From Jiangella aurantiaca (GTDB lineage: Bacteria; Actinomycetota; Actinomycetes; Jiangellales; Jiangellaceae): DNA of 64,000 bases. The stretch lies in the NCBI RefSeq assembly GCF_004349105.1, contig NZ_SMLB01000005.1:1-64000 (forward strand), in the 5' to 3' direction. Position numbers and translations under genes: made by a program. A model generated the notes under the pieces. That model saw nothing but the letters and a program-made list of their open reading frames with translations. It was not told where the DNA came from and did not search any database. Below, piece after piece: positions 43,898 through 45,239 of the stretch. The stretch's first letter is position 1. Each line of letters begins with the position of its first letter.

Positions 43898-45034
43898 TCA
43901 GAGCCAGTCCTTCTTCCGGAAGATCACGAACAGGGCGGCGCAGACGAACGCCATGAGCAGCAGCGCGAACGGGTAACCGAACGCCCAGTGCGTCTCAGGC
44001 ATGTTGTCGAAGTTCATGCCGTAGATGGTCCCGACGAGCGTCGGCGCGAACAGGATGGCGGCCCAGGCGGAGATCTTCTTGAGCTCCTCGTTCTGCTCGA
44101 AGCTGGCCTCGGTCAGCGACTTCATCTCCTCGTTCTGCTGCTGCGTCACCAGCGTCGCGTTGACGGCCAGGATGTCGGAGAGCACCTGGCGGAAGCTGTC
44201 GACCCGCTCCGTCACCTCCGTGACATGGTCGGCGACGTCGCGCAGGTAACGCTGCAGCTCCTCGTCGGTGCCGTACTTCTCGAAGCCGCCCTCGAGCCCG
44301 GACATCATGCTGGCCAGCGGCCGGGTGGCCCGCTGGAACTCCAGCACCTCGCGCGACAGCTCGTAGATGCGCCGCGACACCTTGGGGTCGCGGCCGAACA
44401 CCTGCACCTCGATCTCGTCGACGTCGTTGCTGACGCCGTTGACCACCGGGACGTAGCCGTCGACGACGGAGTCGAGGACGGCGTACAGCACGGCCTCGGG
44501 TCCGAGGCGCAGCAGGTCGGGATCGTCCTCCATGCGCCGGCGGACCGACGACAGATTGGGCGCCGCGCCGTGCCGGACGGTGATGACGAACCCGGGCCCG
44601 ACGAACAGGTGCAGCTCGGCGAAGTCGACCTCCTCGACGGCGTCGAGGTAACGCGCCGCACGCAGCACCACGAACAGGGTCTCGCCGTAGCGCTCCAGCT
44701 TGGGTCGCTGGTGCGCCTCCATGGCGTCCTCGACGGCCAGCGGATGCAGGTCGAACTCGTCGGCCAGCGACAACAGCTCGGCGTCGCTGGGCTTGTAGAG
44801 CCCGATCCACGCCATCGCCTCGGCGTCGGTGCGCAGCTGGCGGTACGTCTCGGCCAGCGAGCTGGGCGTGCTGATGCGCTTGCCGTCGCGGTACAGCGCG
44901 GCGTCGACGATGCTCGACCGGGGCTCAGTGGCCTCCGGCTCCTCGGTGGAGTGGTCGGTCACCGAGTTGCCCCGGCCCTGACGGCGCAGGGCGGGGGGGA
45001 TGACGCGCAAGGCGCGCTGACGACGAGGAGGCAT
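43898..45034 (-). CDS. corA: CorA-family magnesium/cobalt channel
   Basis: A 378-residue CorA channel. A cytoplasmic acidic/helical domain with a long coiled coil (about 225-310) leads to two C-terminal helices and the signature YGMNFDNMPE in the loop between them. The C-terminus is basic (FRKKDWL). It carries Mg2+ and perhaps Co2+ into the cell. ATG 45034 follows GGGAG at 7 nt. Upstream is a ~170-nt leader with a short ORF, so translation-linked control is likely. Confidence 0.93.
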   Translation of the reverse strand: MPPRRQRALRVIPPALRRQGRGNSVTDHSTEEPEATEPRSSIVDAALYRDGKRISTPSSLAETYRQLRTDAEAMAWIGLYKPSDAELLSLADEFDLHPLAVEDAMEAHQRPKLERYGETLFVVLRAARYLDAVEEVDFAELHLFVGPGFVITVRHGAAPNLSSVRRRMEDDPDLLRLGPEAVLYAVLDSVVDGYVPVVNGVSNDVDEIEVQVFGRDPKVSRRIYELSREVLEFQRATRPLASMMSGLEGGFEKYGTDEELQRYLRDVADHVTEVTERVDSFRQVLSDILAVNATLVTQQQNEEMKSLTEASFEQNEELKKISAWAAILFAPTLVGTIYGMNFDNMPETHWAFGYPFALLLMAFVCAALFVIFRKKDWL

Positions 45035-45107
45035 GGCGTCGCTCCCATAGCGGTGAGGCGGACGGAGACGGGTGTCGAGGAACGCAGGAACACCCGGCCG
45101 TCGGACA

Positions 45108-45164
45108 TCAGGTGTCCTCGGCCTCGGCGTCCTGCGTCGCATGACTAGGAGGCTCACTGCGCAT
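45108..45164 (-). CDS. Leader ORF upstream of corA (18 codons)
   Basis: Encodes MRSEPPSHATQDAEAEDT, ending 73 nt before the corA start. It has a strong GGGAGGTGAGG ribosome site. A hairpin with GAGGCT/AGCCTC arms (45149-45154 and 45068-like partner at 45168-45173) spans its ATG. The peptide has a PP pair followed by five acidic residues in seven, features that destabilise ribosomes when Mg2+ is low, as in the enterobacterial MgtL and CorL leaders. TATTCT (45209-45214, minus strand) is a plausible -10. The leader role is inferred. Confidence 0.5.
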   Translation of the reverse strand: MRSEPPSHATQDAEAEDT

Positions 45165-45239
45165 GGCAGCCTCACCTCCCGTTACGTCGCTCTGGTTCGC
45201 CGCCGTCAAGAATAGTCCACGGGCGGCCGGGACGGGCGA

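Follow-up and report, generated by a model that had tools for sequence, protein, structure and literature searches.

Ahead of the corA gene of Jiangella aurantiaca lies a very short reading frame, and the question is whether this gene, which encodes a Mg2+ transporter, is controlled through the translation of a leader peptide and, if so, which feature of the leader would do the sensing. Here, we examined the locus within the window, i.e., the whole 64,000-nucleotide stretch of DNA that was analysed (closest named relatives in the collection: J. endophytica, J. muralis and J. ureilytica), and followed the leader through related genomes.

The reading frame ahead of corA

The leader ORF (MRSEPPSHATQDAEAEDT-stop, 18 codons) is on the minus strand, between the end of a uracil-5-methyltransferase-like gene and corA. 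It is preceded by GGGAGGU (45180-45174) upstream of its ATG at 45164, and it ends 73 nt from the corA ATG at 45034. The first-pass annotation had described a leader with a strong ribosome site, a hairpin over the start codon and this same distance to corA, and all of it was borne out, the hairpin being a predicted fold. A short ORF with its own ribosome site in front of a Mg2+-transporter gene is also one of the marks of the functional class of MgtL and CorL.

The leader ORF is more than a local chance occurrence. A loose, codon-free pattern (SD-ATG-xx-[E/Q/D/H]-P-P) gave 16 matches in the 12 whole Jiangella genomes, 11 of them at the leader site itself and five scattered elsewhere, as compared to nine in the reversed control. 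The strict pattern matched in 10 of 394 genomes of the class, always at corA leaders, and had no match in the control.

We searched the leader region for a sigma-70 consensus promoter and for an intrinsic terminator and found neither. The alignment of the 12 Jiangella leaders contains a conserved GTGRACTAnnCT stretch around a candidate -10 element, and TAnnCT boxes resembling this element occur at a comparable distance in several other lineages. If the candidate element were used, the transcript would start near 45202. The gap between the uORF and the transporter gene has a mean C-G skew of 0.12 in 20 leaders and of 0.055 (sd 0.096) in leaderless controls, which is a weak excess. We considered a further ORF that would overlap the stop codon of the uORF (TGATG...) and dropped it, as it is missing from two of the twelve Jiangella genomes.

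Table 1. Features of the corA leader region of J. aurantiaca (positions in the window)
Feature	Position	Strand	Basis
Candidate -10 element, TATTCT (inferred)	45209..45214	-	alignment of 12 Jiangella leaders
GGAGGU, Shine-Dalgarno sequence of the leader ORF, forming the 5' arm of P1	45174..45179	-	sequence, fold
Inner stem P2 with AUG in the loop: GCUGC 45170-45166 and GCAGU 45160-45156	45156..45170	-	arm-swap test
Leader ORF, MRSEPPSHATQDAEAEDT-stop; conserved codons 1-9, 45164-45138; core E-P-P-S, 45155-45144	45108..45164	-	
GCCUCC, 3' arm of stem P1, anti-Shine-Dalgarno-like, overlapping the Glu-Pro-Pro codons	45148..45153	-	fold
Second hairpin: CGCAGGA 45136-45130 and UCCUGCG 45089-45083; uORF stop near the loop	45083..45136	-	fold
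C-rich, G-poor stretch in the gap before corA, possible Rho entry site	45049..45080	-	weak signal
Ribosome site GGGAG of corA	45042..45046	-	by eye
corA, Mg2+ transporter, 378 aa	43898..45034	-	Pfam PF01544, E 8.9e-62

Conservation of the peptide core and of the start-codon hairpin

The leader accompanies the corA orthologue in each of the 12 Jiangella genomes. Codons 2-9 (RSEPPSHA) differ at five sites in these 12 leaders, each time at a synonymous third position, and the start codon is GTG in one of the 12. From codon 10 onward the changes fall mostly at first or second positions and alter the amino acid; the acidic tail DAEAEDT is the unconserved part and drifts even within Jiangella. In codons 10-15 the third positions are fixed and the amino acids differ, and the second hairpin covers the 3' half of the ORF; its arms are retained in the alignment of the 12 genomes, a feature shown for Jiangella only.

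Among 85 leaders (54 distinct) the core reads Glu (47), Gln (6) or Asp (1), then Pro-Pro, then Ser (53) or Gly (1), so that Pro-Pro-Ser is present in 53 of the 54 distinct leaders and a single PPG is the sole exception. The start codon and one to three further residues precede the core, giving M-x(1-3)-[E/Q/D]-P-P-S. The ORF takes 8-26 codons, where the upper value is a bound set by the 78 nt examined and one longer case was seen. No acidic residue follows PPS in 66 of the 85 leaders, and in one lineage, family f17, the leader is reduced to an 8-codon form, MSQPPST-x, in which Gln replaces Glu throughout. The emphasis that had been placed on acidic residues was not supported: the tail is not kept within Jiangella, most tails contain no acid, and one lineage has Gln in place of the Glu. 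A conserved run of acidic or alternating acidic and proline residues was likewise not seen in the leaders examined. What the leaders do share with EF-P-dependent PPX pause leaders is a conserved PPX in which X is a pausing residue, pausing being judged from E. coli data.

The codons of this core are unusual as well. In the first 36 leaders, CCU or CCC encodes Pro 1 in every case and Pro 2 in 34, and AGU encodes Ser in 35 of them. These codons are rare, since CCT makes up 4.8% of Pro codons and AGT 3.3% of Ser codons in the genes of the window, where CCG accounts for 61% of Pro. The parser of leaders admits CC[T/C]CCN[A/G]GT only, and the later 49 leaders are unfit for codon counts; the bias of the first 36 stands because those were found by an amino-acid pattern with no codon requirement. 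Comparing corA leaders across actinobacteria was a check suggested by the first-pass annotation; in this comparison the amino acids of the core are conserved and its codons drift synonymously. The synonymous-only variation of codons 2-9 and the persistence of the core over many lineages indicate selection on the leader peptide.

The RNA around the start codon is predicted to form a hairpin in which GGGAGGU pairs with GCCUCCU (P1) and an inner stem, GCUGC with GCAGU (P2), encloses the AUG. The whole leader folds with z = -2.1, and 5 of 200 shuffled sequences fold equally well. The complementarity of the Shine-Dalgarno sequence to CCUCC is found in nearly all leaders and is almost invariant; since the pairing hardly varies, P1 is not proven by covariation. 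For P2 we combined the spacer of one lineage with the ORF head of another. Such swapped arms reach a mean of -3.6 kcal/mol versus -5.0 kcal/mol for matched arms, and none of 10,000 permutations was as good as the matched set (19 of 10,000 when family f17 was left out). The P2 arms are co-adapted between lineages. Since codons 2-9 vary only synonymously and the P2 arms are co-adapted, the peptide and the start-codon hairpin both appear to be under selection. RNAalifold on a MAFFT alignment of the leaders recovered part of P1 only, with no covariation; MAFFT misregisters P2, which is part of the cause, and the arm-swap test was used instead. A proposed outer stem (P0), in which AGU would pair with sequence upstream, folded no better with matched than with swapped arms and was dropped. 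When the leader was compared with the Rfam covariance models, no family matched, the leader families being considered at E up to 1.

Association with corA and mgtE

The regions upstream of CorA relatives were scanned with an amino-acid pattern without any codon requirement. The leader core was found upstream of corA in about ten actinobacterial lineages; the same scan placed it in a sister genus of Jiangella, in a MAG of Candidatus Stackebrandtia and in six further families, and some Streptomyces have it as well (sp. NEAU-Y11, S. coffeae, two further genomes). A profile was then built from sequence only, from 20 corA leaders and with no mgtE leader in the training set. In the 394 class genomes it gave 33 clear matches at E <= 6.8e-6, with the remainder above 1e-4; 28 of the 33 precede corA and five precede mgtE, and Pfam places MgtE at these same five loci. 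Four profile matches that had not yet been assigned were inspected. One of them, in G361 (L253), is a true mgtE leader; the other three, all weak, showed no Mg2+-transporter leader in the stretch examined.

The profile also matched in 79 of 88 genomes of genus g36 and in 20 of 179 genomes of the genus of G190, which we take to be Streptomyces from the similarity of its leader and CorA to named loci. The two genera contributed 49 new loci, of which 42 precede mgtE, six corA and one a transposase, counts that are of non-independent events, the leader loci being related by descent. At the last of these (L297, G459:C1:2277737-2277781) an intact corA-type leader is followed, after the expected corA ribosome site, by an IS110-type transposase gene as judged by eye, and corA is probably disrupted there. 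Two genomes of genus g64 hold a leader-like sequence, VRDSDPPSRGRAHRQPR, with a ribosome site and a hairpin (G203:C3:2555320-2555364 and G111:C1:6569692-6569735, both on the minus strand); it faces the end of a convergent VWA-domain-like gene, and no Mg2+ transporter was found in the stretch examined.

Since the gene surroundings of the mgtE and corA copies differ, the leader is not one locus carried along. Most CorA and MgtE relatives of the same class are without the leader, and among the best 30 MgtE loci examined only five have it, all of one group. We looked for leaders on other CorA and MgtE paralogues, including a second corA of the same genome, and found none. That second CorA (G000:C6:58709-59689), which shares its genome with the main corA, is 69% identical and has no leader; no CorA at 69% identity is listed beside the main copy in the other eleven Jiangella genomes. 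MgtE had no match in the Jiangella genomes searched, and for the five class-sample genomes whose leader precedes mgtE the census lists no close CorA. In one genome, G506, corA and mgtE each carry one leader. It seems that the leader follows whichever Mg2+ transporter a lineage uses.

The tie between a conserved leader peptide and Mg2+ transport, as originally proposed for corA, was thereby upheld and extended to the unrelated mgtE. Because the leader is attached to two non-homologous transporters, we argue that Mg2+ supply is what it serves. Low Mg2+ would be the signal, as this gene association suggests.

A candidate mechanism and its alternatives

We hold it very probable that the leader is real, is translated and regulates Mg2+ transporters in cis. 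What is conserved, as far as sequence and predicted fold can tell, is Pro-Pro-Ser in rare codons within a hairpin that would mask the ribosome site. From the computed conservation, gene association and hairpin co-adaptation we infer a Mg2+ response, a pause and an output step. With ample Mg2+, the ribosome would cross [E/Q]PPS and complete the ORF, and the leader would be in its OFF state. With Mg2+ scarce, the ribosome would pause or fall off at PPS, owing to poor Pro-Pro peptidyl transfer, to less of the Mg2+-dependent m1G37 modification of tRNA-Pro, or to ribosome destabilisation. The leader would then refold or remain covered, and corA or mgtE would be expressed. The output may run through Rho termination by way of the C-rich gap, or through access to the ribosome site GGGAG of the transporter, to which CCUCC could also pair. 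We give about an even chance to the full model, in which transporter expression is set by Mg2+-dependent passage of ribosomes through PPS in the manner of MgtL, and are slightly more reserved about the particular combination of an ORF that can shrink to eight codons, Pro-Pro codons that double as the anti-Shine-Dalgarno arm, and Mg2+ sensing by PPS passage before both CorA and MgtE.

Work on other bacteria offers precedents for these steps. In E. coli devoid of EF-P, PP followed by Ser pauses, PP followed by Thr or Tyr does not, QPPS is strong and PPG usually pauses (PMC4140641), and Pro-Pro in short nascent chains leads to drop-off (PMC8934632). EF-P acts on both mgtP and mgtL of Salmonella (PMC6460261), the CC[C/U] codons of MgtL depend on m1G37, which is made by the Mg2+-dependent TrmD (PMC6335274), and at low Mg2+ MgtL undergoes drop-off at its early EPDP stretch (PMC11282234). 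In E. coli, corA expression varies inversely with translation of its uORF, and Rho takes part (PMC11552253). Several points count against the full model. CCUCC is at once the Pro-Pro codons and the arm that masks the Shine-Dalgarno sequence, so that constraints on peptide and RNA overlap, and the invariant AGU points to some constraint on the nucleotides. The strength of PPX pauses comes from E. coli and not from actinobacteria. Most CorA and MgtE relatives of the class are without the leader, and the leader-like sequence of genus g64 has no Mg2+ transporter in the stretch examined. In E. coli MgtL, changing E to Q and D to N abolished the response (PMC11282234), whereas Gln is natural in the actinobacterial leader.

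One alternative is a switch in which the hairpin itself senses Mg2+ or another ligand and gates the leader ribosome site, the peptide mattering little beyond its translation. The co-adapted P2 arms and the joining of Shine-Dalgarno and CCUCC in nearly all leaders fit such a switch, the almost invariant AGU of Ser suggests some constraint at the nucleotide level, and the ribosome site of the E. coli corA uORF is likewise sequestered (PMC11552253). However, codons 2-9 of Jiangella vary synonymously only, and in several lineages a CCU to CCC change breaks a P1 pair and Pro is retained; conservation of E/Q/D-P-P-S would not be expected of an element acting purely as RNA. The hairpin is moreover small (~40 nt) and corresponds to no known aptamer and to no Rfam family. 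We regard an RNA sensor as unlikely, even if it is the strongest of the alternatives. Destabilisation of the ribosome at low Mg2+ by an acidic and proline-containing nascent chain, as in MgtL, draws on the Glu just before Pro-Pro in 47 of the 54 distinct leaders, a position that resembles the EPDP of MgtL (PMC11282234). It seems to us the least likely reading, given the drifting and mostly acid-free tails and the Gln that stands for Glu across one lineage.

A signal other than Mg2+, such as the supply of proline or prolyl-tRNA, the level of EF-P or translation stress, is only a little less improbable than that. Mg2+ transporters would in this case be targets since Mg2+ stabilises ribosomes; the core belongs to the pause motifs of the EF-P type (PMC4140641), and in Salmonella the Pro codons of mgtP and mgtL make both responsive to EF-P (PMC6460261). 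However, every confirmed target is a Mg2+ transporter, and a leader for general stress should also turn up on other genes. Amino-acid attenuators usually contain long runs of cognate codons, and this leader has two Pro codons only.

Several described systems are close to this leader. MgtL, ahead of mgtA in Escherichia and Salmonella, is likewise a short translated ORF before a Mg2+ transporter, with early Pro and acidic residues and CC[C/U] Pro codons, and its links to EF-P and m1G37 are reported (PMC6335274, PMC6460261, PMC11282234). Its sequence is unrelated to MRSEPPS (by-eye comparison with MgtL as quoted in PMC8934632) and its target is the P-type MgtA, whereas the actinobacterial leader has Pro-Pro-Ser without need of acid, in an ORF of down to eight codons, and would target CorA and MgtE. 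CorL of the same two genera is likewise a uORF ahead of corA whose ribosome site is sequestered in a stem, and Rho is reported to act there (PMC11552253); unlike our leader, which combines Pro-Pro-Ser with a simple hairpin and also precedes mgtE, corL is reported to have a single proline and lies in a three-way junction. In the Salmonella mgtCBR operon a Mg2+ transporter is controlled by the small ORFs MgtP, which contains Pro, and MgtQ, which is acidic (PMC6460261, PMC8092293), but they show no sequence relation, serve another transporter family and belong to one enterobacterial operon. Mycobacterium tuberculosis, also an actinobacterium, has the M-box, a Mg2+-related leader that comes with small uORFs and involves Rho (PMC12810186); it is, however, a large Mg2+-binding RNA, and our leader has no M-box match in Rfam. 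The candidate riboswitch named the mgtE motif, in Thioalkalivibrio, is a leader RNA before mgtE with covariation, but it is reported only from that genus, forms a large RNA of several stems surrounding the start codon of mgtE, and is not described there as a uORF (PMC11109978). By analogy, the leader may work like MgtL and CorL. It is not a member of those sequence families: no similarity was found to MgtL by eye or to the Rfam leader models, in agreement with the initial view of an independent actinobacterial version.

A literature search, with subscription papers and preprints outside its coverage, returned no report of MRSEPPS, MSQPPS or an mgtE or corA leader beyond the enterobacterial and mycobacterial work. 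On its sequence features, the leader is a strong candidate for an undescribed, translation-based control of Mg2+ uptake in actinobacteria. The sensing step of the enterobacterial leaders is debated, with acidic destabilisation, EF-P together with Pro-Pro, and m1G37 of tRNA-Pro all under discussion. Another leader, apparently independent of these and much more minimal, with PPS in CC(U/C) codons and with acid dispensable, would help to separate these models, and it offers a way into the Mg2+ homeostasis of soil actinobacteria, antibiotic producers among them.
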